Source: a virus. Taken from it: 32,842 nucleotides of DNA. Location: the IMG/VR virus record IMGVR_UViG_3300044844_000349, positions 1 to 32,842 of that record. One strand, given 5' to 3'. Made by a program: the position numbers and the translations under genes. Positions within the stretch are counted from its first letter, which is position 1. Every line of letters starts with the position of its first letter. The notes below the pieces were generated by a model. It was not told where the DNA came from, made no database searches, and saw only the letters and a program-made list of their open reading frames with translations. Shown here one piece after another: positions 6,206 through 28,153 of this stretch.

Positions 6206-6543
6206 TTTCTAACTCCATCGATATGAGAGCATTTACTACGATACTTATATGCGGTGCAGGTGCATGAATAACGCTTGAACGGACCCGCAGTTACGACATA
6301 CTTGTTATCAACGATTGAAACATTATCCCCACGATTTGACTTGTCGACCCAGGCCTGAATAACATCACGCTTATCAAGTATGCGAACCGGAGCATCAATG
6401 TCACCTGTAGTGAGAAAAAACTCATTCTCTGATAGCCATGAGGAACGTGGGACAACATGCCCCACATATTCAACCTCTGACGGACTATAAGCAAGCCCAT
6501 TAGGCTTGAACGCCGTTTTATATCGTAGTTTGACAAGAGACAT
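6202..6543 (-). CDS. SWIM zinc-finger protein
   Basis: 113 residues. The C terminus reads YSCTCTAYKYRSKCSHI (93-109), the CxC...CxH signature of a SWIM zinc finger, a small nucleic-acid or protein-binding module. The rest is beta-rich with no further motif. Family knowledge: SWIM domains usually accompany other domains, so a minimal phage version may act as a binding adaptor. The start overlaps the upstream stop by one base. Confidence 0.75.
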   Translation of the reverse strand: MSLVKLRYKTAFKPNGLAYSPSEVEYVGHVVPRSSWLSENEFFLTTGDIDAPVRILDKRDVIQAWVDKSNRGDNVSIVDNKYVVTAGPFKRYSCTCTAYKYRSKCSHIDGVRK

Positions 6544-6803
6544 TAGAGAACCTTCATGTCGATTGTAGCATCAAAGAACGTTTTGATTTCACGTTCAAAG
6601 TATTCATTCTTTACACAGCCATCTTTCCAGGCTAAGAAAGAATGATACAGGTTATGTATTTCATCTAGTGTGCGGTGTAGTGCCTCCACATCTTCATCAA
6701 TCTGACCCTTTTCCAAAACACGATAGCCACGACGCTCGACGTTCTCAATGAGGTCATCAGTGTCGATATCGCTAATGTCGATTTGCACATTGACGTAAGA
6801 CAT
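6543..6803 (-). CDS. Conserved small acidic phage protein
   Basis: 86 residues, acidic. The N terminus MSYVNVQIDISDIDTDDLIE with its repeated Asp-Ile pattern is common in short phage proteins near replication or regulation genes. A strong AGGAG lies before the ATG. Probably helical after residue 20 with heptads around 45-60. Function unknown. Confidence 0.75.
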   Translation of the reverse strand: MSYVNVQIDISDIDTDDLIENVERRGYRVLEKGQIDEDVEALHRTLDEIHNLYHSFLAWKDGCVKNEYFEREIKTFFDATIDMKVL

Positions 6804-6827
6804 GGAAGCACTCCTATTGTTTAGAGA

Positions 6828-7421
6828 TTAGATGCCAAGAGCCTTGAGGTCAAGACCTTCGATGCTATCCCAGTCACGGTCAACATTGAACGAGGTGCCA
6901 ACTTCACCTGACGTACCAAACTGTTCAGTCACATCGTCATATTCACGGACATTCTTGGGCTTAAACTTAGCACCCACAGCCTTCAACTTAGCAAGATTGG
7001 CTGCCTTGATATCAGCAACAGACTTGGAAGACTTAGCAGCAGCAACCTTGCGGGGAGCAGCGGGTGCAGCAGCCTTCTTGGGAGCCTTCACCTTAGCAGC
7101 CTTGGGGGCAGCAGGTGACTTAGCCTTGGCGACTTTAGCACCAATGCCACGAATATCAGCAGCGTTCTTCGGCTCGACGGAGCAGGTATAAGAAACGATC
7201 TTGCGACCGTCTTTCTGCACAGTGAAGTCAAAGCCGAGCAGACGCAGGAACGTGATATACTTGGCAGAATAGTTCTTAGAAGAACCGGCAGGACGGACAA
7301 GGTTGTCGATATCAGACGGGGAGACTGCCTTGCCGAGTTTAATCAAGTGGATGATCGGCTTGACACGACGAGCCATGGTATCAGCGGAACCAGCCCAAGC
7401 AGGAATGTTTACATTAGCCAT
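6828..7421 (-). CDS. Histone-H1-like protein with Ala/Lys-rich linker
   Basis: 197 residues from ATG 7421, chosen because AAAGGAG precedes it; in-frame codons back to 7451 lie in the leader. Residues 1-85 form a conserved phage domain (AWAGSADTMARRVKPI ... KYITFLRLLGFDFTV), probably a winged-helix fold. Residues about 98-145 are an Ala/Lys/Pro linker with H1-like repeats (KVKAPKKAAAPAAPRKVAAA). An acidic tail follows. Expected to bind DNA or RNA non-specifically, perhaps compacting phage DNA or competing with host nucleoid proteins (inference). It is the first gene after a perfect sigma70 promoter, so probably abundant and early. Confidence 0.8.
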   Translation of the reverse strand: MANVNIPAWAGSADTMARRVKPIIHLIKLGKAVSPSDIDNLVRPAGSSKNYSAKYITFLRLLGFDFTVQKDGRKIVSYTCSVEPKNAADIRGIGAKVAKAKSPAAPKAAKVKAPKKAAAPAAPRKVAAAKSSKSVADIKAANLAKLKAVGAKFKPKNVREYDDVTEQFGTSGEVGTSFNVDRDWDSIEGLDLKALGI

Positions 7422-7451
7422 ATTAGATACTCCTTTCATCATTATGATCAT

Positions 7452-7480
7452 ATAATAGCACGACCGGGAACATATGTCAA
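7452..7480 (-). promoter_or_regulatory. Sigma70 promoter (cassette A)
   Basis: TTGACA (7480-7475), 17-base spacer, TATTAT (7457-7452) on the minus strand, about 30 bases before the ATG of the H1-like gene. Immediately upstream lies the repeated hairpin element (7484-7532). Confidence 0.88.
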
Positions 7481-7483
7481 GAG

Positions 7484-7532
7484 AAATCGTATGTAAACAC
7501 CTGCGACATGTTGTCGCACCAATAGTCTATAG
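7484..7532 (-). repeat. Repeated upstream element, cassette A
   Basis: On the minus strand: CTATAGACTATTGG, hairpin TGCGACA-ACA-TGTCGCA (7518-7502), then GTTTACATACGATTT directly before the -35 box. Copies with the same order lie at 8490-8538 and 12548-12592, and a degenerate one at 11921-11952. The conserved text outside the promoter boxes points to a protein or RNA-polymerase contact, or to a terminator fused to a promoter. Confidence 0.8.
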
Positions 7533-7559
7533 AATGAGTAGAGTGTTGTCATACGATTT
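7484..7559. repeat. 17-base inverted repeat around cassette A hairpin
   Basis: AAATCGTATGTAAACAC at 7484-7500 (plus strand) is matched by its inverted copy at 7543-7559 with two mismatches. The arms enclose the smaller TGCGACA hairpin. The outer arm runs to within nine bases of the stop of the 7568-7780 gene. Confidence 0.75.
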
Positions 7560-7567
7560 GTTGTCAT

Positions 7568-7780
7568 TCAATGCAGGGTGGGAGAGAGTTCATAATCGGT
7601 CGCCCATTCATCATTGAAAAACTTGTCAAGGACTTCCTCCACAAATTCTAATTCAATCTTGATTGGCAGCCGCTCATTCACATAATTGAGGACATCGTTA
7701 TCTGTCATAACGCCTGGCTCACCCATTGCATCATGAATAAGATTAACGGCCTCAATATACAATTCAGACATTTTTGACAT
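7568..7780 (-). CDS. Hypothetical acidic protein, about 70 residues
   Basis: Acidic, mainly helical (DNDVLNYVNERLPIKI). ATG codons at 7780 and 7771 are both possible; a TTG at 7786 is less likely. Either start overlaps the end of the upstream gene (stop at 7764). It is the last gene before cassette A. No family recognised. Confidence 0.65.
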   Translation of the reverse strand: MSKMSELYIEAVNLIHDAMGEPGVMTDNDVLNYVNERLPIKIELEFVEEVLDKFFNDEWATDYELSPTLH

Positions 7781-7919
7781 CTTCAAGTATATCCTCTATA
7801 ATCCACATTAGAATACCGACTTTGATCAGCATCGCTTCATTATCGGCTTCATGACCGTTATTATCTTCATAACTGAAATAGCTATGCAGATAGCTTAACG
7901 TAGCATCTATATTAGACAT
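7764..7919 (-). CDS. Hypothetical acidic peptide, 51 residues
   Basis: Reads MSNIDATLSYLHSYFSYED and ends DILEDVKNV. It overlaps the upstream gene by eight bases and the downstream one by up to 17. The codon pattern and tight overlaps support it. Function unknown. Confidence 0.6.
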   Translation of the reverse strand: MSNIDATLSYLHSYFSYEDNNGHEADNEAMLIKVGILMWIIEDILEDVKNV

Positions 7920-8052
7920 CAGAAAACTCCAGGACAAGAGTATATTTACCGTCTGACCACTTTTTCTGTTTTACAACATGCCAGCCGAGAGCAATAAAGT
8001 TATTTGCTACACGGCAGACATAACTAAAATCACCAGAGATAATCTTTTGCAT
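7912..8052 (-). CDS. Small protein resembling DUF1737-type peptides, 46 residues
   Basis: Begins MQKIISGDFSYVCRVANNF and continues ALGWHVVKQKKW. A short helix followed by GW and beta strands recalls DUF1737-like small proteins; the match is weak. GGAGG precedes the ATG by six bases, a strong site. Overlaps the next gene by eight bases. Confidence 0.65.
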   Translation of the reverse strand: MQKIISGDFSYVCRVANNFIALGWHVVKQKKWSDGKYTLVLEFSDV

Positions 8053-8053
8053 A

Positions 8054-8185
8054 TTAGTCCTCCGCATTTTCATCAAATTCATCTATCATTTGCTGCAATG
8101 TTTCAGCAGCCTCATAATAGCCACGAGCCTCAGCCTCAATAAGAGCGCATTGAAGTTCTAAGCGATAAGCATCATTGCTATTCAT
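8054..8185 (-). CDS. Small acidic helical protein, 43 residues
   Basis: One or two helices (LELQCALIEAEARGYYEAAE) with an acidic end. AAGGAG stands before ATG 8185. It ends one base before the next ATG. Unknown function. Confidence 0.62.
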   Translation of the reverse strand: MNSNDAYRLELQCALIEAEARGYYEAAETLQQMIDEFDENAED

Positions 8186-8197
8186 ATTGATCACTCC

Positions 8198-8431
8198 TTA
8201 AATGCCAACGAGGTTATCAAGATAAGACTGGTCGACAGAGCCGACGATGCCGACGTTACGGAGCCAGGCATTGATATGCTTGGACGTGGTACGTGACCAC
8301 TTATAATTCGTGCGAACATAACCCGTGCCCGGCACATATGCAGCGACAGGGGTCTTGTAGGAGAACAGAATAACAGTTCCGTCCTTGAGATTGATCTGGG
8401 TCTGATTGGAAGCGAAGTTATTGAGTTTCAT
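8198..8431 (-). CDS. Conserved small phage protein, 77 residues
   Basis: Contains TPVAAYVPGTGYVRT and WSRTTSKHINAWLR, a pattern I know from a family of short phage proteins (probably the one named DUF8033); name not certain. Beta strands are followed by a helix. First gene behind cassette B, with AAGGGA before the ATG; likely early and well expressed. Confidence 0.75.
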   Translation of the reverse strand: MKLNNFASNQTQINLKDGTVILFSYKTPVAAYVPGTGYVRTNYKWSRTTSKHINAWLRNVGIVGSVDQSYLDNLVGI

Positions 8432-8457
8432 GATTTTCCCTTTCTCGATTATGTCTA

Positions 8458-8486
8458 ATCATAACACAACGGAATGGAAGGTGCAA
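8458..8486 (-). promoter_or_regulatory. Sigma70 promoter (cassette B)
   Basis: TTGCAC (8486-8481), 17-base spacer, TATGAT (8463-8458) on the minus strand, 26 bases before the ATG at 8431. The upstream repeat element abuts it. Confidence 0.83.
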
Positions 8487-8489
8487 GGG

Positions 8490-8538
8490 AAATCGTATGA
8501 CAACAGGTGCGACATGATGACGCACCCTTAGTCTATAG
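8490..8538 (-). repeat. Repeated upstream element, cassette B
   Basis: Minus strand: CTATAGACTAAG, palindrome GGTGCG-TCATCATGT-CGCACC (8526-8506), then TGTTGTCATACGATTT before the -35 box. The six-base outer stem is perfect; the inner part has a T-T mismatch, then CAT/ATG. It shares sequence and layout with cassettes A and C. Confidence 0.8.
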
Positions 8539-8557
8539 TTTTGGTAGTCTTTTGCGA

Positions 8558-8582
8558 TTGTAGACAGATTTCTTGTCTACAA
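8558..8582. repeat. 9-bp perfect hairpin TTGTAGACA/TGTCTACAA
   Basis: Stem of nine base pairs with a seven-base loop, just after the stop of the 8594-8824 gene on the minus strand. A third TGTAGACA copy lies at 8591-8598, overlapping that stop. There is no T-run, so it is not a typical terminator; it may be an operator or a processing/stability structure. Confidence 0.7.
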
Positions 8583-8593
8583 ACACCTTTTGT

Positions 8594-8824
8594 CTACATT
8601 GAGGGCTTCGAAGGGCTTTCGCCACTGGATTTATCGTTTTGCGTTTCATCTTTCTTTCCTATTTCCAGATTGTGTAATTCGATAATGAGATGTATCGTTT
8701 GTAGTCTTAGACGATCTGCGCCAAGGCCACGCCAGGTCTCACTCTTTTCTTTTGCATCAATAAGTCGAATAAGTATCTCTCGTTCCTTATTGATATACTC
8801 AATTTGTTTAGGTGACAGTTTCAT
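8594..8824 (-). CDS. Hypothetical helical protein, 76 residues
   Basis: Charged and helical (EYINKEREILIRLIDAKEKS), then a disordered tail (KSSGESPSKPSM). AGGAG lies 10 bases before the ATG at 8824. Overlaps the upstream gene by 17 bases. No family recognised. Confidence 0.68.
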   Translation of the reverse strand: MKLSPKQIEYINKEREILIRLIDAKEKSETWRGLGADRLRLQTIHLIIELHNLEIGKKDETQNDKSSGESPSKPSM

Positions 8825-8981
8825 CTTTTGCTAACTCCTGTATAAGGTCTGCAATTTGCCGACAACCTTCTGCATTAGTAACATAGGCCCAATAGGACTT
8901 GTCCTCTTTGGTTGCCAGTGTTCGTTTATCAAAGTAGTCGGCAGCGTCATTTAGAAACTTGATTGCTTGTTCTACTGTCAT
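8808..8981 (-). CDS. Hypothetical protein, 57 residues
   Basis: Starts MTVEQAIKFLNDAADYFDKR with AAGGGA before the ATG, ends KDETVT. Two helices predicted. It follows rtcB after three bases, so it is probably in the rtcB transcript. Function unknown. Confidence 0.65.
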   Translation of the reverse strand: MTVEQAIKFLNDAADYFDKRTLATKEDKSYWAYVTNAEGCRQIADLIQELAKDETVT

Positions 8982-8984
8982 CTT

Positions 8985-10211
8985 TTATCCCTTTACATTT
9001 AGAACCTGACGAAGGCGATGGACAATCTCAACAAGGTCATCCTGTGCAGCCATTACAGCGCCAATGTCCTTATAAGCAGCCGGGCTTTCGTCGATTACAT
9101 CAACGTCCTTACGGCACTCAATACCTTCGGTCGCCTTGATATGATCTTCCAGCGTGATAGCCTTACGAGCCGCATTGCGGGACATACGACGACCAGCACC
9201 ATGAGAACACGAACAAAACGACTCCTGGTTACCGAGACCACGAACGATAAACGAACCCGTACCCATTGATCCCGGTATGATACCAAGATCGTCCTTACGG
9301 GCACGAACCGCACCCTTACGGGTCACCCACACATTCTTGCCAAAGTGGTTCTCCTTAGCAATATAGTTGTGGTGACAGTTCACAGCCTTTTCATCAGACA
9401 CAACAAAGTGCGGCAAACGCTGACGCAGAACATATAGCACCGCATCCATCATTACCTGACGGTTAAGAGCCGCAAACTCCTGTGCCCACGATACAGCCTC
9501 CACATAATCATCAAACAGCGTCGTGTTTTCTACAAGATAGGACAAGTCACTATCCGGTAGATACGGCAAGACATGATAACGCTCCATTTCACGCTTTGCA
9601 GCCTCAATGAAGTATTGACCAATCTTGTTACCAACACCACGAGAACCAGAGTGTAGCATTATCCACACATAATCGTCCTCGTCCAGACACAATTCGATAA
9701 AGTGGTTACCCGTACCGAGAGTTCCCATAAACTCAAAAGTCTTATGAGAACGGATCTTCGGGTGCTTTGCTACGATAGCCTCATAACGAACACACAACTT
9801 TAACCAAGCGGTCGTAGCAGCATCAGAAACATGAGATTGCCACGTTCCCTTGTCGTTCTTACCACCGTTGTCGGTACGACCATGCGGAACCACGGACTCA
9901 ATATGAGAACGCAGCGAGTGAAGATTGTCCGGCAGATCGTTCGCCGTCAATGACAGACGAACAGCCATCATACCACAACCGATATCAACACCAACAGCAG
10001 CCGGCACAACAGCACCAACCGTCGGAATAACCGACCCAACCGTTGCACCCTTACCAAGATGGACGTCCGGCATAACAGCAACGTGGCCAGCAATAAACGG
10101 GAGTGCCGCAATATTGTCTAACTGGGTGCGGGCATCAGCCTCGACCTCAACTCCCTCACACCACATCTTTAAGCGACCACCACGGGCGCCATCCACATAC
10201 TGGTATGCCAT
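8985..10211 (-). CDS. rtcB: RtcB-type RNA ligase
   Basis: 408 residues, the full length of bacterial RtcB. It joins RNA ends bearing 2',3'-cyclic or 3' phosphate to 5'-OH ends, using GTP and Mn2+. Metal and active-site residues are in place: GVDIGCGM (D76, C79), GTGNHFIEL (H170), LHSGSRG (H187), CHHN (H280/H281), and the guanylated histidine in SHGAGRRMS (H337, the same number as in E. coli). No archease gene is visible. It is encoded among small accessory genes between cassettes B and D. The likely phage role is resealing tRNAs cut by host anticodon nucleases or maturing phage RNA (inference). Confidence 0.95.
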   Translation of the reverse strand: MAYQYVDGARGGRLKMWCEGVEVEADARTQLDNIAALPFIAGHVAVMPDVHLGKGATVGSVIPTVGAVVPAAVGVDIGCGMMAVRLSLTANDLPDNLHSLRSHIESVVPHGRTDNGGKNDKGTWQSHVSDAATTAWLKLCVRYEAIVAKHPKIRSHKTFEFMGTLGTGNHFIELCLDEDDYVWIMLHSGSRGVGNKIGQYFIEAAKREMERYHVLPYLPDSDLSYLVENTTLFDDYVEAVSWAQEFAALNRQVMMDAVLYVLRQRLPHFVVSDEKAVNCHHNYIAKENHFGKNVWVTRKGAVRARKDDLGIIPGSMGTGSFIVRGLGNQESFCSCSHGAGRRMSRNAARKAITLEDHIKATEGIECRKDVDVIDESPAAYKDIGAVMAAQDDLVEIVHRLRQVLNVKG

Positions 10212-10221
10212 TTTAATTCTC

Positions 10222-10371
10222 CTATCGTTCCTCTACACAGTAACCGGTATAATGTTCATTATGCTTATAACGTTCTATATAGCGTTTTACTGCTACACGA
10301 GAGATACCTCTCCATGTGCGGTCAGCCAAACGAAAATGTATGGTGAGATTGAAAGTTTTGACATTAGCCAT
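10222..10371 (-). CDS. Small basic protein, 49 residues
   Basis: MANVKTFNLTIHFRLADRTW..., basic, with an Arg/Tyr-rich helix (RVAVKRYIERYKHNEHY). AAAGGAG is well placed before the ATG. Lies 10 bases upstream of rtcB. Unknown function. Confidence 0.66.
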   Translation of the reverse strand: MANVKTFNLTIHFRLADRTWRGISRVAVKRYIERYKHNEHYTGYCVEER

Positions 10372-10383
10372 TATATATCTCCT

Positions 10384-10590
10384 TTAGAAGTTAGCCGAGT
10401 CATCGAAAGCAAAAGGATTTACGTTTTGTGTTTCATCACCATCAGCAAATACCACAATGTCGTTTTCCTGCACCTCGCAGACTGCACGATAATCCCAGAA
10501 CCTATGGATAAAGTCTGGCTTACCAAACACAGCAACCGCCGTATGATAACGGTCATTTTTGAAACCGACAAAGTGGATTGCATTTGTCAT
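10384..10590 (-). CDS. Conserved phage protein (AIHFVGF...PDFIHRFWD)
   Basis: 68 residues. The AIHFVGFKNDRYHTAV start, KPDFIHRFWDYRA centre and IVVFADG end are shared by short proteins in many large phages of alphaproteobacteria. No activity known. ATGA overlap with the upstream gene. Confidence 0.78.
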   Translation of the reverse strand: MTNAIHFVGFKNDRYHTAVAVFGKPDFIHRFWDYRAVCEVQENDIVVFADGDETQNVNPFAFDDSANF

Positions 10591-10733
10591 TCAGGCACCA
10601 TCCAGATTTGAACACCGTTAGCAGCAAACGCTTTACTATACACTACCACACCGACTTCACCCCACAGTTCGGTGTTATTCAACAACTCTATGGTAGGCAA
10701 ATAAACAGTTTCATCGGTATGAGCATCAGCCAT
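10587..10733 (-). CDS. Hypothetical protein, 48 residues
   Basis: MADAHTDETVYLPTIELL..., mostly beta, ends QIWMVPE. AGGAG precedes the ATG; TAATG overlap upstream and ATGA overlap downstream. Function unknown. Confidence 0.66.
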   Translation of the reverse strand: MADAHTDETVYLPTIELLNNTELWGEVGVVVYSKAFAANGVQIWMVPE

Positions 10734-10945
10734 TATATATCTCCTACTTCAACAACTTCACTGATAGGCGCTGGACCTTCTACAGCAGGATTATCCAGCG
10801 TTCGCCCTTCAATACGATAGAACGGGTAATAAGGTCGACTCGGCCATGCCTCCCAGGCATCACGAGCCGCTTGAATAGATGAATACACACCTATAGCCCG
10901 ATCATCGTCGGAGTGCGCTTCACATATCAGAAGATATACACGCAT
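10733..10945 (-). CDS. Hypothetical protein, 70 residues
   Basis: Begins MRVYLLICEAHSDDDRAIGV, followed by an AARDAWEAW helix and Pro-rich tail. This layout (strand, acidic loop, helix with Trp) is common in short phage peptides that react to signals, but no family is clear. TAATG overlap on both sides. Confidence 0.68.
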   Translation of the reverse strand: MRVYLLICEAHSDDDRAIGVYSSIQAARDAWEAWPSRPYYPFYRIEGRTLDNPAVEGPAPISEVVEVGDI

Positions 10946-11049
10946 TAGTTCGTCCTATCAATAACGATCCACAGCAAAGTGCCGATAAAGGCAAACGTAG
11001 CAACCATACCGAGTGCGGCATATTGCATGACTTTAGTTTCGTCCATCAT
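10945..11049 (-). CDS. Small membrane peptide, 34 residues
   Basis: Residues 10-30 (YAALGMVATFAFIGTLLWIV) make one membrane helix. Two consecutive ATGs (11049, 11046); the first overlaps the upstream stop (ATGA). GGAGG lies 10 bases before it. Unknown function. Confidence 0.62.
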   Translation of the reverse strand: MMDETKVMQYAALGMVATFAFIGTLLWIVIDRTN

Positions 11050-11201
11050 ATGAAAATATCCTCCAGTTCGTCCATATCGTTTATAGTGCCAGGAACAATC
11101 CAATATGAAATATCAGTTTCAAGGAGTAGATTGCCAAGGTACTGTGTGAAGCAATACTCACGGGTACCACGTTCATCATAGATCGAATAAAACACAGTCA
11201 T
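11046..11201 (-). CDS. Hypothetical acidic protein, 51 residues
   Basis: MTVFYSIYDERGTREYCFTQ..., ends with an acidic helix (DMDELEDIFI). AGGAG precedes the ATG. ATGA overlap with the next gene. Unknown function. Confidence 0.64.
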   Translation of the reverse strand: MTVFYSIYDERGTREYCFTQYLGNLLLETDISYWIVPGTINDMDELEDIFI

Positions 11202-11211
11202 ATTAGTTCTC

Positions 11212-11430
11212 CTATTCAGCCATCACGGCCTTGAGCAAATCTTCATTCATAACAGTAGCAGCAATAAGGCGCAAGGTCTTTAACTTGCGGGTTGCTATTG
11301 TTACAAGTTCGGGATCAGTCAGGCAATCCCGCTTCATTCCCATTTCAGATAATGTGGTGGCGAGTTCTTCCATGGGCAATTCCATGTTCTCACGATATTC
11401 TTGAGTATCAAGATTGACAGTCGTAATCAT
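11212..11430 (-). CDS. Hypothetical protein, 72 residues
   Basis: Acidic first half, then a basic helix (ATRKLKTLRLIAATV). GGAG precedes the ATG. It ends 10 bases before the next start. No family recognised. Confidence 0.66.
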   Translation of the reverse strand: MITTVNLDTQEYRENMELPMEELATTLSEMGMKRDCLTDPELVTIATRKLKTLRLIAATVMNEDLLKAVMAE

Positions 11431-20213: not shown

Positions 20214-20575
20214 AAAATTTCCATAGTGAACAATGCACGAGTGTAAGTCTCCGGGTCATATGGAATCTTTTGTCTAGCAAAGACAACAAACCCCATGTCA
20301 CCAGGTACCATTACCTCACGCATAGATTTGCCAGTTGTCCATACATCATCAACCACAAGATGAATAGGATGATTAGGTAAGCAATACTTCTGTAGAGCAT
20401 TGGCAAGTTTGGTGCCACCACGTGGAATGCCATAGACAGAACCAAACTCTGTCTTTTCGCTAATCATCTTAGCAAGACAATCCCAATCTTCGTCGGTGAG
20501 TGCATCACACTCAATCTTCCAATCGAGTTCATTGCCTGCATGTGAGGTAAACTTACCGAGTTGAAATAGGTTCAT
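20210..20575 (-). CDS. Phosphoribosyltransferase-like protein
   Basis: 121 residues. GSVYGIPRGGTKLANAL (45-61) and the PRPP motif LVVDDVWTTGKSM (73-85) mark a type I phosphoribosyltransferase, close to the orotate/uracil type but short. A role in base salvage is plausible; the substrate is unknown. The acidic pair DD in the PRPP loop is intact. It is embedded in an overlapping operon (ATGA on both sides). Confidence 0.85.
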   Translation of the reverse strand: MNLFQLGKFTSHAGNELDWKIECDALTDEDWDCLAKMISEKTEFGSVYGIPRGGTKLANALQKYCLPNHPIHLVVDDVWTTGKSMREVMVPGDMGFVVFARQKIPYDPETYTRALFTMEIL

Positions 20576-20793
20576 TGTGCTTCTTCCAGTTTCTTCTTCG
20601 CATCAAGAAATTCAATGACATTCTCATACTTGAGTTTTTCAGCATCCTCTTTAGGAAGAAGATCATATATGTGTGATTCCACAATCTGCTTTACAAGTTC
20701 TTCTCTTGACATATTGATAATGTCACCGAAGAAACGGTTAGCAACGTCTTTGCTAACATAGTTGAGGTCCATTCCTTTCCAAGTCTTTATCAT
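20572..20793 (-). CDS. Hypothetical helical protein, 73 residues
   Basis: Two helices (MSREELVKQIVESHIYDLL, EFLDAKKKLEEAQ). ATGA overlap with the L,D-transpeptidase stop. Unknown; possibly a cytoplasmic partner in the same transcript. Confidence 0.68.
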   Translation of the reverse strand: MIKTWKGMDLNYVSKDVANRFFGDIINMSREELVKQIVESHIYDLLPKEDAEKLKYENVIEFLDAKKKLEEAQ

Positions 20794-21188
20794 GGTACAA
20801 TCCTTATCGTTGTGTCTGAATCCTGCTTTACAATGCTATAAAGAGTAGCAGCATTGCTTGGAGAAAGGCGAACGCAGCCGTGAGAAGCGGGTCGACCCAA
20901 AGCACCAACATGAGGAGTAGCGTGAATTGCATAACCACCGCTAAAAAAGATAGAATGAGGCATCGGGGCATTGTCGAACTTCTTTGAGTAGTGCATTAGT
21001 TGAAGGGAATAAGGACGGAACGTACCAGTGGGAGTATAATAACCTTTGCGGGCGGTTGAGACTCGCCACTGATACGATCCATAATCACTATCAACCTGCA
21101 TCATCTGGTGCGACTTGCTAATAGTGATATTAGTTTCTGCTGCGGCTGGTGTAGAAAGTAGCATCATAGCAATCAATAGTTTCTTCAT
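20790..21188 (-). CDS. L,D-transpeptidase (YkuD) with signal peptide
   Basis: 132 residues. A Sec signal peptide MKKLLIAMMLLSTPAAA (cleavage after A17) is followed by a YkuD domain with H89 (YAIHATP) and the catalytic SHGCVRLSP (H103, C105, R107). The enzyme would act in the periplasm on peptidoglycan stem peptides, forming 3-3 links or swapping D-amino acids. It is small for the family, essentially catalytic core only. GGAG stands before the ATG. Seen in a phage, it may remodel the wall to block superinfection or tune lysis (inference). Confidence 0.92.
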   Translation of the reverse strand: MKKLLIAMMLLSTPAAAETNITISKSHQMMQVDSDYGSYQWRVSTARKGYYTPTGTFRPYSLQLMHYSKKFDNAPMPHSIFFSGGYAIHATPHVGALGRPASHGCVRLSPSNAATLYSIVKQDSDTTIRIVP

Positions 21189-21275
21189 TCACTTCTTCTC
21201 CATATATGTAGCACATGAGGCAGGTAGTTTATTATCATACTTACAATAGGCGGCGATTAGATTTCGCATTATCAT
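21189..21275 (-). CDS. Possible 28-residue peptide
   Basis: MIMRNLIAAYCKYDNKLPAS plus CATYMEKK. It fits exactly between its neighbours: ATGA overlap with the upstream stop and its TGA one base before the transpeptidase ATG. GGAAG precedes it. Two Cys; no membrane segment. Could simply be a coupling reading frame. Confidence 0.5.
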   Translation of the reverse strand: MIMRNLIAAYCKYDNKLPASCATYMEKK

Positions 21276-21505
21276 TCTTCCAGTTTTTTAGTTGCTCTCT
21301 CAATACCTTTTTCACGATTTTTAGTTTTTCTAAAATGGTGTGACATATAACGCATATTCTGTATCGGATCTTTACTTCCATCACCACTATCATATGCCCG
21401 TGAATGTGCTGCTTTGCTTTCACCAGCCTTTTTGATATAAGATTTTAGTGTTTCAGAACGCATTTCGTCAAGTTTGTTATAGAAACTTTCTTTGATATCG
21501 GACAT
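21272..21505 (-). CDS. Conserved small phage protein, 77 residues
   Basis: MSDIKESFYNKLDEMRSETL, then KSYIKKAGESKAAH and KTKNREKGIERATKKL. The SYIKKA...R-KGI-A-KL pattern is shared with modules in the two virion proteins at 28543 and 31351, suggesting a structural or prohead link. AAGGA before the ATG. A T4-late-like TATAAATA lies about 90 bases upstream. Confidence 0.75.
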   Translation of the reverse strand: MSDIKESFYNKLDEMRSETLKSYIKKAGESKAAHSRAYDSGDGSKDPIQNMRYMSHHFRKTKNREKGIERATKKLEE

Positions 21506-21589: not shown

Positions 21590-22234
21590 ATGGCTATTTA
21601 TAGAATCCCTCAACCACAGCGTCTAAATCAACCGAACGGTATGATTCCTCTTCCAAGCAAGGAAGAGTTCCTCCACCTATACCAAGACCAAAACAAATCC
21701 CGACAAGAGTTAGCATTATACTACAAAGTTCATAAAGGTACAATAGACAACTGGTGTAAAAAGTTTGGTGTAAAGAAAACCAAACAGCAGCAGGTAGATT
21801 TAGCATTACGGAACACTCCAAAGTTCAACAAAAGGAATGGAAAGTATAGTGAAAGTATTTTCCGCAAAAGACCATACCTAAAAGACAAACCTGCCACATT
21901 CTACATCATTCGAGTTTATAATGATACCGAGTCATTCTATAAGTTTGGTATTACCATACACGATGCCAAAGCAAGATACAAAGGCCGTTTTAGACAATAC
22001 AAGTATGAGATAATCTCGGAAACAAAAATGTGTCTGTATGATGCCTTCCTTTTGGAATCTTCTTGCGTTGATTACAAGAATACACACAGACACATTTCTT
22101 ATGAACCCTTACATCATTTTGAGGGACATACGGAGTGTGTTATATGTCACACCCTCCTGCCGAACACGCCAAATTTTGAACACCCTCAGTCTCGTCCTCA
22201 AACTCTACCAATGTATCCCAGTCCAGGTGAGTAG
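21590..22234 (+). CDS. Free-standing homing endonuclease-like gene (HTH + GIY-YIG-like)
   Basis: 214 residues on the opposite strand. Residues 22-62 form a helix-turn-helix (SRQELALYYKVHKGTIDNWC), and 102-158 resemble a GIY-YIG/T5orf172 nuclease (ATFYIIRVYND, YKFGITIHDAKARYKG, E156 in LLESS). GGAG lies eight bases before the ATG. The last 95 bases run antisense into the 3' end of nrdJ. Opposite orientation and position beside an RNR gene are typical of mobile homing genes. The catalytic set is incomplete by eye, so activity is unsure. Confidence 0.78.
   Translation: MAIYRIPQPQRLNQPNGMIPLPSKEEFLHLYQDQNKSRQELALYYKVHKGTIDNWCKKFGVKKTKQQQVDLALRNTPKFNKRNGKYSESIFRKRPYLKDKPATFYIIRVYNDTESFYKFGITIHDAKARYKGRFRQYKYEIISETKMCLYDAFLLESSCVDYKNTHRHISYEPLHHFEGHTECVICHTLLPNTPNFEHPQSRPQTLPMYPSPGE
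21595..21602 (-). promoter_or_regulatory. Candidate T4-type late promoter TATAAATA
   Basis: A perfect TATAAATA on the minus strand inside the first codons of the plus-strand gene, about 90 bases upstream of the 77-residue gene at 21505. It would drive that gene and the transpeptidase late. Confidence 0.45.
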
Positions 22235-26557: not shown

Positions 26558-26893
26558 TTATTTTTTGAGCAAAGGTTTCATTTGCTGAATAACTTCCTTG
26601 AGGCCTTCAATCTCCTTACGGAGGTCCTGTCTGTCTTGATCAACGACAGGAACCCTTGCCTCAAGTTTTGCTTTGATGGTATCCATAGTTTCTTCTATGT
26701 GATTTACCTTCTGTTCAATGTAAGTTACTCTTTGTTGGAGTTCTAAATCTTTCATCTTGAAATCACCAATGGTCATGAAATAGGCGGCAATCAATCCACC
26801 GACTGCTATTAGGGCAGTGATGAAATGAGGTGCCTTATCAAGTAGACCACCAACTACATCGTCATTGTCGTCGTTGGTGTTGTGGTTAGCCAT
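26558..26893 (-). CDS. Membrane-anchored coiled-coil protein; holin/spanin candidate
   Basis: 111 residues. One membrane helix (FITALIAVGGLIAAYFMTIG, about residues 24-43) follows an acidic N terminus; the rest is a coiled coil (LELQQRVTYIEQKVNHIEET ...) ending in KKs. Next to the endolysin, so a lysis role is plausible, though single-pass plus coiled coil is closer to an inner-membrane spanin than a holin. Start 26893 is chosen for its GGAAG; 26905 is an alternative. Confidence 0.72.
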   Translation of the reverse strand: MANHNTNDDNDDVVGGLLDKAPHFITALIAVGGLIAAYFMTIGDFKMKDLELQQRVTYIEQKVNHIEETMDTIKAKLEARVPVVDQDRQDLRKEIEGLKEVIQQMKPLLKK

Positions 26894-26913
26894 TGTTGCT
26901 TCCATTCCTTTCT

Positions 26914-27027: not shown

Positions 27028-27741
27028 CTACTGATTAGTTAGATCAATCTCAACAAACATTGGTATATCATTAGATGTATTAGCAACTGTTTCAACCACT
27101 TCAATAATCGTATTTGTATTCGGTTGCTCAATCTTTTTTACGACCACTGGTTCCGCTTTAGGTTGTTCAACTTTCTTAGGAGCAGGTTCAGGTTTCTCAA
27201 ATGTCTCAATAGTTTTCAATGCCTGTTTTGCTCTAGCAAGTTTAGCCTTACGATCTTCTAGACCATTGTAACCACCATTGATGGCTCTTGTTACAAGTCT
27301 AACATCGTCACGGTCAGCAAGTGCATTTATCTTTCTCTGCTTCCAGTATTCCAATGCAGTCAATACTGAAATCCTAGGAGTCGCTGCCAACTCTGGATGA
27401 TTAACTAGGTCAATACCTAGAATGTCTCCATAACGCTGATAGTTAGCACGACCTGTTAGTTGGATGACACCACGTCCTTTAAAACGAACACCATCACCCT
27501 TTCTAATGTTTCCTAAATCTCGTCTGCCTTCATATGCTCTACCAGATGCATATTCTTCGGTAGTTCTAAAATGGTCACTCTCATGTGCGATTTGGGCAAG
27601 AAAGTGAGCCAATCTCAATTTTGTTGTTATACCATATTTCTCTAGTGCCTCAGGCAAGTGTTCAACTAATCCATCAATTACTTTTTTGTTACCCTGGACA
27701 CCAGAAACCTTCCTTAGTATCTCTGGTGTAATCTTATACAT
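27028..27741 (-). CDS. GH19 chitinase-like endolysin
   Basis: 237 residues from ATG 27741 (GAGAGGATAAT before it). The GH19 lysozyme domain (about 1-170) has AHFLAQIAHESDHFRT with catalytic E54, then E62/E63, GDGVRFKGRGVIQLTGRANY and VTRAINGGYNGL. It cuts peptidoglycan glycan strands at lysis. A 65-residue Lys/Pro/Glu-rich tail follows (KPEPAPKKVEQPKAEP), unusual for a soluble endolysin, ending in an acidic FVEIDLTNQ. No signal peptide, so it needs a holin. Confidence 0.92.
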   Translation of the reverse strand: MYKITPEILRKVSGVQGNKKVIDGLVEHLPEALEKYGITTKLRLAHFLAQIAHESDHFRTTEEYASGRAYEGRRDLGNIRKGDGVRFKGRGVIQLTGRANYQRYGDILGIDLVNHPELAATPRISVLTALEYWKQRKINALADRDDVRLVTRAINGGYNGLEDRKAKLARAKQALKTIETFEKPEPAPKKVEQPKAEPVVVKKIEQPNTNTIIEVVETVANTSNDIPMFVEIDLTNQ

Positions 27742-27742
27742 A

Positions 27743-28153
27743 TTATCCTCTCTTACCGTAACGAGCATATAACATTTCACCTGATGTTCTATTCTTTAGA
27801 ACGATAGGCTTATGTGGATGCTTGTTAGCATATTCTCTAATCTCAGCCAAGCAATCATCTTCTTCCAGATACTTACGCCAGGTTTTGTGTTTTCTTTTTT
27901 GGTTCTTTGTGTTATAGAATACCTCTGATGATACCTCAAACACAACGGCGCCGGCGAATGTCTCACATTCTTCTGACAACGGAGCCTTACGACGCATCAT
28001 ATTGATGATAACAGGTGTAGGTGTAGATTTATTCTTACCATATCTCTTTCTCTGTGCTTTGACAGATACACCTGGTTCACCCATTGCTCCGACGCCTGCA
28101 CCAGCAATAGCGCCTGAACCTACGTTGTTTGTTGGGGCATCTTCTTTTATCAT
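27743..28153 (-). CDS. Conserved T4-like phage protein, probably virion-associated
   Basis: 136 residues. The Gly/Ala N terminus (EDAPTNNVGSGAIAGAGVGA) is of the kind found in T4-like prohead or virion proteins. The C-terminal domain VSSEVFYNTKNQKRKHKTWR ... NRTSGEMLYARYGK is well conserved in my memory. Ends one base before the endolysin start. Role unknown. Confidence 0.78.
   Translation of the reverse strand: MIKEDAPTNNVGSGAIAGAGVGAMGEPGVSVKAQRKRYGKNKSTPTPVIINMMRRKAPLSEECETFAGAVVFEVSSEVFYNTKNQKRKHKTWRKYLEEDDCLAEIREYANKHPHKPIVLKNRTSGEMLYARYGKRG

Follow-up and report, generated by a model that had tools for sequence, protein, structure and literature searches.

A conserved, predicted exported L,D-transpeptidase in a group of uncultured T4-like phages

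A T4-like virus fragment in IMG/VR (record IMGVR_UViG_3300044844_000349; its 32,842 bases are referred to here as the window) encodes a YkuD-family L,D-transpeptidase (LDT) with a predicted export signal, which is a conserved gene of a whole group of uncultured phages. No report of a phage-borne L,D-transpeptidase was found in the open-access full-text literature searched; judged from those texts, what is apparently new is a known enzyme family in phages, together with a new gene pair described below. The sequences establish the family, the export signal, the conservation and the gene coupling of the LDT, and the safest statement is that it is an exported LDT-type enzyme that would act on the host wall. 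From these we infer an activity, its timing and a protective effect, and tentatively propose that the exported LDT fortifies the wall of the infected cell, with a benefit against transglycosylase-type attack, a reading that could well prove wrong.

The phage nature of the record is clear from its T4-type genes (PhoH-like, RtcB, ligase, T4-type primase and ThyX, among others) and from the GH19 endolysin on the same record (Table 1); an RNR of 630 aa is also encoded. No relative among cultured phages was found when 22.8 kb of the window was searched at the DNA level. The relatives of the LDT and the phiM12/phiN3-type neighbours of one window gene suggest an alphaproteobacterial host, whereas the window primase is nearest to those of cyanophages (41-43%). 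Downstream of the LDT, the 73-aa ORF has no Pfam or PHROG match, and the phosphoribosyltransferase-like ORF has a weak PF00156 match (E 0.018) under the cut-off; a gene of the latter kind adjoins the LDT in most clade A loci. The homing-endonuclease-like ORF on the opposite strand is present in some relatives only (for example L004, L005, L007, L017 and L020).

Table 1 Features of the window in and around the LDT gene and the lysis region.
Feature	Position	Strand	Evidence or remark
Phosphoribosyltransferase-like ORF, 121 aa	20210..20575	-	Overlaps 73-aa ORF by 4 nt
73-aa ORF downstream of LDT	20572..20793	-	Overlaps LDT stop by 4 nt
Predicted exported YkuD-family LDT, 132 aa	20790..21188	-	ATG-started ORF, Pfam, AlphaFold2, Foldseek
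Catalytic stretch H89 to R107 (HATPHVGALGRPASHGCVR), Cys105	20868..20924	-	Invariant alignment columns; 59/59 phage sequences
Predicted signal peptide, residues 1-17	21138..21188	-	From the sequence; A15-x-A17 cleavage site
26-codon remnant of exported HNH-type gene	21189..21269	-	DNA alignment; internal deletion
77-aa ORF upstream of LDT	21272..21505	-	Beside LDT in few relatives (L017, L019)
Homing-endonuclease-like ORF	21590..22234	+	Opposite LDT operon; PHROG endonuclease families, best E 2e-9
T4-late-like motif TATAAATA	21595..21602	-	407 nt upstream of LDT; not conserved
Small membrane protein, weakly spanin- or holin-like	26558..26905	-	phrog_7686 E 3.6e-4, phrog_1296 E 8.3e-4
GH19-type endolysin of window phage	27028..27780	-	PF00182 E 1.4e-9; phrog_181 endolysin E 3.2e-64

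The window LDT matches the Pfam YkuD family (PF03734) with an E-value of 4.8e-17 and 63.3 bits against a cut-off of 23.4, and each of ten larger LDT-bearing phage records (10/10) holds exactly one YkuD protein over the cut-off. Its active-site string is IHATPHVGALGRPASHGCVR, in which the IHAT-x10-SHGCVR site is complete. The motif H[AG]T-x10-SHGC[VI]R occurs in all 59 distinct phage LDTs, the window included, and, with T or S allowed, in 80/80 bacterial LDTs (the best 80 of at least 579 matches); the catalytic cysteine is the sole cysteine in 58 of the 59 phage proteins. The AlphaFold2 model (pLDDT 82.3, pTM 0.76) was best matched by Foldseek to PDB entry 5bmq (E 3.4e-8, TMq 0.72). There were 68 PDB matches at E <= 0.001, and the top 50 listed were almost all L,D-transpeptidases. 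Searches of the window LDT gave no PHROG match and no NCBIfam match over the cut-off, and the PADLOC anti-phage defence models gave 0 matches for the LDT and two HNH-type proteins.

The LDT N-terminus, MKKLLIAMMLLSTPAAA followed at the predicted cleavage point by E, reads as a signal peptide whose residues A15 and A17 are nearly invariant in the alignment, and the mature protein would comprise ~115 aa, barely larger than the catalytic domain. Signal peptides were called with a crude home-made sequence rule, which picked 1 of 58 window sequences (the LDT itself) and 49 of the 59 phage LDTs. Among the ten phage LDTs that failed the rule, L039 ends at a contig edge, four show a hydrophobic export-type N-terminus when all start codons are re-read, and the other five carry a KKLL...TPAM(A/S) string behind an upstream start. 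The sequence-only reading had claimed a signal peptide plus a full HGCVR site in a phage, with which the ORF, the PF03734 match and the 59/59 motif agree; its description of a periplasmic cross-linking enzyme is borne out as far as the YkuD family, the predicted export signal and the active site. The same crude export rule picked 13 of 238 ORFs in G001 and 8 of 268 in G005, two LDT-bearing phage records, and positions 159471-165337 of G001 (L072-L073) hold a cluster of ~6 small signal-peptide ORFs, one of them Gly/Tyr/Trp-rich. These LDT-bearing phages appear to have a whole set of exported proteins.

A scan of viral contigs with the LDT protein gave 63 loci, and a scan with the LDT alignment kept the best 80 of 163 candidates; together the two scans yielded the 59 distinct LDTs of >100 aa, window included, one of which is incomplete. 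In one set of loci, clade A, the LDT mostly stands between the RNR and a phosphoribosyltransferase-like gene, in that order. Its neighbours differ in a second set, clade B (L043-L062), and in isolated cases such as L042, and the LDT was found in three or more genomic contexts. Sampling was also based on the primase instead of the LDT, which avoids circularity. Among the 57 primase loci, 34 had a primase identity of at least 58%, and 18 of these hold both the RNR and the gene beyond the site; the LDT is present in 17 of these 18 spanning clade A loci, several of which are near-copies of one another (L090-L093, L104/L105, L084/L085). The one locus that lacks it, L107, has another ORF at the LDT site. 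The other 23 primase loci, at <50% identity, carry no LDT (0/23) within the DNA fetched, which indicates that the LDT is a feature of this group and not a general one. Presence in 17/18 loci, taken with the three or more contexts, argues that the gene has been retained and has also moved around.

Among 50,697 cultured-phage records, tblastn found a single LDT match, OQ658363. This record (OQ658363.1, locus L297, 'Pseudomonas phage sp.') was rejected as a source of a phage homologue: genes for a 16S rRNA pseudouridine synthase and a transacylase lie beside the match, and the record appears to be bacterial chromosomal DNA deposited as phage. When viral structure models were searched, three of them matched weakly at E <= 0.001 (TMq 0.55-0.56), and more distant YkuD-fold proteins may exist in other phages.

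The closest bacterial proteins, considered here as the best 80 of at least 579 matches, share 47-64% identity with the phage LDT in the best segment. They bear mostly Hyphomicrobiales (Rhizobiales) names and include one Chromatiales MAG; most are single-domain proteins with an export signal, 138-230 aa long, and any annotation they carry is that of an L,D-transpeptidase. Maximum-likelihood analysis of 59 phage and these 80 bacterial rows, carried out after L063 (47 aa) and identical sequences had been dropped, places the phage LDTs in one clade (100/100) on a stem of 0.77 changes per site. Where this clade attaches among the bacterial rows has weak support (70/76, 80/79), with no resolved sister, and a bacterial origin of the phage LDT is clearly indicated. 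Nine LDTs, including those of clade B, are nested within the phage part of the tree (52-row fork 97/88, 55-row fork 99/95), a placement suggesting that the gene later passed from one phage group to another. Such a transfer would fit the LDTs of G001 and G005, which are 70% identical against a median of 46% over 100 reciprocal best hits; but the RNR is also 70% identical and the LDT ranks only eleventh, so that strong constraint alone could possibly explain the figure.

Signs of exchange or of assembly problems were noted at several places in these contigs. Five consecutive genes with 100% protein identity are shared by G001 (8941-11420) and G005 (6444-9004; L065, L074), two records that are distant elsewhere (median 46%), reflecting either a very recent exchange or an assembly artefact. 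The LDT at L017:4744-5133 joins a clade A body to a clade B-like C-terminus, and those of L041 and L238 diverge over their second half; these three mosaics may be products of recombination or chimeric assembly.

The mature part of the LDT has a median dN/dS of 0.12 (211 pairs, dS near 1) and the signal peptide a median of 0.31 (274 pairs), as estimated with a simple method, dS being close to saturation, after pairs of dS > 1.5 had been dropped. By this measure the phage LDT is under purifying selection, and its conservation together with the median of 0.12 excludes a chance ORF.

A frequent partner of the LDT gene is a gene for a signal-peptide-bearing HNH-type protein (155-172 aa), which lies in full length directly upstream of the LDT in 17 of 53 distinct contexts, counted after dropping duplicates and loci short of upstream DNA. 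The gap between the two genes is -4 to 26 nt in 16 of the 17, depending on the start codons chosen, and 213 nt in L235; the HNH-type gene ends 4 nt inside the LDT in relatives such as L003, L008, L018, L021, L025, L229 and L233. Translation of the two genes is probably coupled, or nearly so, in these 16. The HNH-type gene is missing from 36 of the 53 contexts, including two with remnants; the RNR is directly upstream in 16/53, a 68-aa membrane protein (phrog_6006) in 5/53 and something else in 13/53. In the window, the first five codons of the HNH-type gene (ATGCGAAATCTA of the start) are joined to its last ~21 codons, and the same remnant occurs in L001, L017 and L019. The sequence-only reading had overlooked both the conservation of the LDT across the phage group and this exported partner, a remnant of which lies in the window itself.

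Eight aligned HNH-type proteins share invariant E74, D76, H77, N87 and N91 and four invariant cysteines, an HNH-like residue pattern in a protein apparently suited to an oxidising compartment. No Pfam model scored over its cut-off among five HNH-type proteins tried, the best match being a weak one to PF13930 (E 4.9e-4, 20.7 against 27 bits). The best PDB match, Cas8f-HNH, is also weak (E 0.0096), and the AlphaFold2 model is poor (pLDDT 69). The gene has a dN/dS of 0.12 (25 pairs). A viral scan with the HNH-type protein gave 45 loci. The LDT adjoins in 24 and is absent within 3 kb in 20; the remaining locus, L296, escaped the HNH profile. The gene was found in 1 of 19 bacterial genomes searched. 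HNH-type relatives in viral contigs without an LDT (L276-L295) include two with lipobox-like N-termini, L280 and L283, and the latter lies near an amidase-like endolysin ORF, as read from translations.

The sequence-only reading had also placed a late-type promoter motif ahead of the LDT operon. The motif TATAAATA is indeed present upstream, but its conservation did not hold: it occurs in 5 of 50 distinct 700-nt upstream regions (duplicates and loci short of upstream DNA dropped) against a background of 6.3% of random windows, and in 0/50 on the other strand. In the window it falls inside the first codons of the opposite-strand homing-endonuclease-like ORF. Near background in the relatives and located inside that ORF, it was rejected as a conserved LDT promoter. 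Genome-wide, the motif is distributed 11 vs 1 by strand in G001 (7.1 expected per strand) and, with a weaker bias, 18 vs 9 in G005 (10.8 expected), and it may be a real late motif elsewhere in these genomes.

In the fortification reading tentatively proposed above, the phage would make a minimal host-derived L,D-transpeptidase, and a Sec-type signal peptide would send it to the periplasm. During infection the enzyme would use tetrapeptide stems already present in the host wall to form LD (3-3) crosslinks, and these would fortify the envelope of the infected cell. The likeliest gain would be that the infected cell, and with it the phage's own burst, is shielded from lytic-transglycosylase-type enzymes, whether these are host autolysins or come, as endolysins or tail enzymes, from rival or sibling phages, while the phage's own GH19, GH24 or M15 endolysin would still work. 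In about one third of the relatives, the coupled exported HNH-type protein could cut incoming DNA in the same compartment.

Excerpts of PMC11390936 report that lytic transglycosylases, the lambda endolysin among them, are inhibited by LD-crosslinks whereas lysozyme and a muramidase are not, and that overexpression of LdtE cut E. coli plaques of lambda and P2 and not those of P1, T4 and T5. These findings lend plausibility to the sequence-only reading. If the LDT serves exclusion or protection, the phage's own endolysin should therefore be of an LD-crosslink-insensitive kind. The endolysin survey covered four families, GH19, M15_4, GH24 and SLT, in LDT-bearing phages. Across the 26 LDT-bearing records, GH19 is present in 6, M15_4 over the cut-off in 10 and GH24 in 1, which is also an M15 record, giving endolysin candidates of these three types in 16/26 combined; 10 of the 26 (38-147 kb) have none of GH19, M15_4, GH24 and SLT. 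According to a portion of PMC12329726, one GH19 endolysin, from a prophage, has been characterised as a hydrolytic muramidase, and a search for a PDB relative of the M15 candidate found none. SLT occurs in two records, both with GH19, inside ORFs of 1020 and 608 aa that are probably tail proteins, and one long G005 ORF has a transglycosylase match under the cut-off. The endolysin types found appear to be the kinds reported as LD-crosslink-insensitive, which fits the idea of compatibility and lends it weak support, with poor discrimination in a survey of LDT-bearing phages only. The endolysin slot itself (27028-28153) appears exchangeable: it holds GH19 in the window and an M15-type peptidase in several relatives, and some of the matching slots compared (L087, L089, L095, L098, L101, L102 and L112) have no visible lysis gene.

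Extending the fortification reading to the gene pair leads to a two-enzyme 'periplasmic gate', which we regard as doubtful. The exported HNH nuclease would destroy the DNA of a second phage on its way through the periplasm, and the co-translated LDT would rebuild an LD-crosslinked wall that rival transglycosylase-type enzymes cut poorly and that leaves the resident hydrolytic endolysin unhindered; the window lineage would have lost the nuclease and kept the wall arm.

It is also conceivable, if rather doubtful, that the LDT maintains the wall or sets the timing of lysis, preventing wall failure while host wall synthesis is shut down, with other phages being irrelevant. The LDT could hold the wall during such a shutdown because LD-crosslinking draws on stems that the wall already contains. 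Under envelope stress, LDTs mend and strengthen the wall (excerpts of PMC11390936), LD-transpeptidation seems essential in Agrobacterium tumefaciens (partial text of PMC11527210), and the phage LDT is retained without the HNH-type partner in most contexts. However, maintenance leaves the coupling to that exported protein unexplained, and a Hyphomicrobiales-type host would already own many LDTs, 14 being given for A. tumefaciens in the same partial text (PMC11527210).

An unlikely reading is that the protein is a hydrolase, namely an L,D-carboxypeptidase, an endopeptidase or a DpaA-like amidase, that trims stems or cuts outer-membrane tethers, thereby aiding lysis or blocking host crosslinking. 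The YkuD family does include carboxypeptidases, endopeptidases and amidases, as stated in a section of PMC12729407, and the NCBIfam model of ElsL, an L,D-carboxypeptidase, is matched weakly, at 21 bits where the cut-off is 270. The nearest relatives among the best 80 of at least 579 matches are, however, exported proteins of a single domain, called L,D-transpeptidases wherever they carry an annotation, and the canonical SHGC[VI]R motif is retained, although sequence cannot decide the matter.

Attachment of outer-membrane beta-barrels to the wall, or exchange of D-amino acids, with altered surface, receptors or vesiculation, seems quite improbable as the role of the phage LDT. Hyphomicrobiales-specific LDTs help to tether outer-membrane beta-barrels to peptidoglycan (partial text of PMC11527210) and a Liberibacter LDT also modifies lipid A (excerpt of PMC6267092), but the phage LDT data contain no direct sign of tethering. 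That the LDT is a passenger from the host without a role, or a virion part, is very improbable despite its clear bacterial origin: this reading is largely refuted by conservation, with the dN/dS of 0.12, the presence in 17/18 loci (L107 being the counter-example) and the retained signal peptide against it, and the clade A gene sits between nucleotide-metabolism genes, not among virion genes.

The wall enzymes for which phages are known are those that break it, and a phage group that retains an enzyme of the wall-building kind would reverse this usual picture. If the fortification reading is right, these phages would be a natural case of the recent laboratory result that the lytic enzymes able to act on a wall depend on its type of crosslink, and resident LDT phages should exclude transglycosylase-type rivals and not muramidase- or peptidase-type ones. 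The coupling of the LDT to the exported HNH-type protein further suggests an exclusion module located at the envelope.

Among known proteins, the single-domain exported YkuD LDTs of Hyphomicrobiales share the domain, the active site and the signal peptide with the phage LDT. The phage copies differ in being at the short end (~132 aa), near the shortest bacterial members, and in being carried by lytic-type phages as a separate, long-stemmed clade (0.77). By function and not by sequence, the phage LDT can be likened to the T4 superinfection exclusion proteins Spackle (Sp) and Imm, since it would, if our reading is right, likewise be a small exported protector acting at the wall step. T4 Sp is a lysozyme inhibitor without enzymatic activity, whereas the phage LDT, as an enzyme, would alter the wall directly. 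Sp is named in connection with superinfection exclusion in a part of PMC9004378. A Bdellovibrio LDT fortifies the wall of its prey, as described in excerpts of PMC11390936, and is thus an exploiter's own LDT acting on the wall of the exploited cell, as proposed for the phage; this likeness is drawn from the description, and the exploiter is a predatory bacterium there and a virus here. The overexpression of LdtE in E. coli, reported in the same excerpts (PMC11390936), involves the same enzyme family and the same proposed outcome, but a host enzyme was overexpressed there by experimenters, whereas here the gene is the phage's own.
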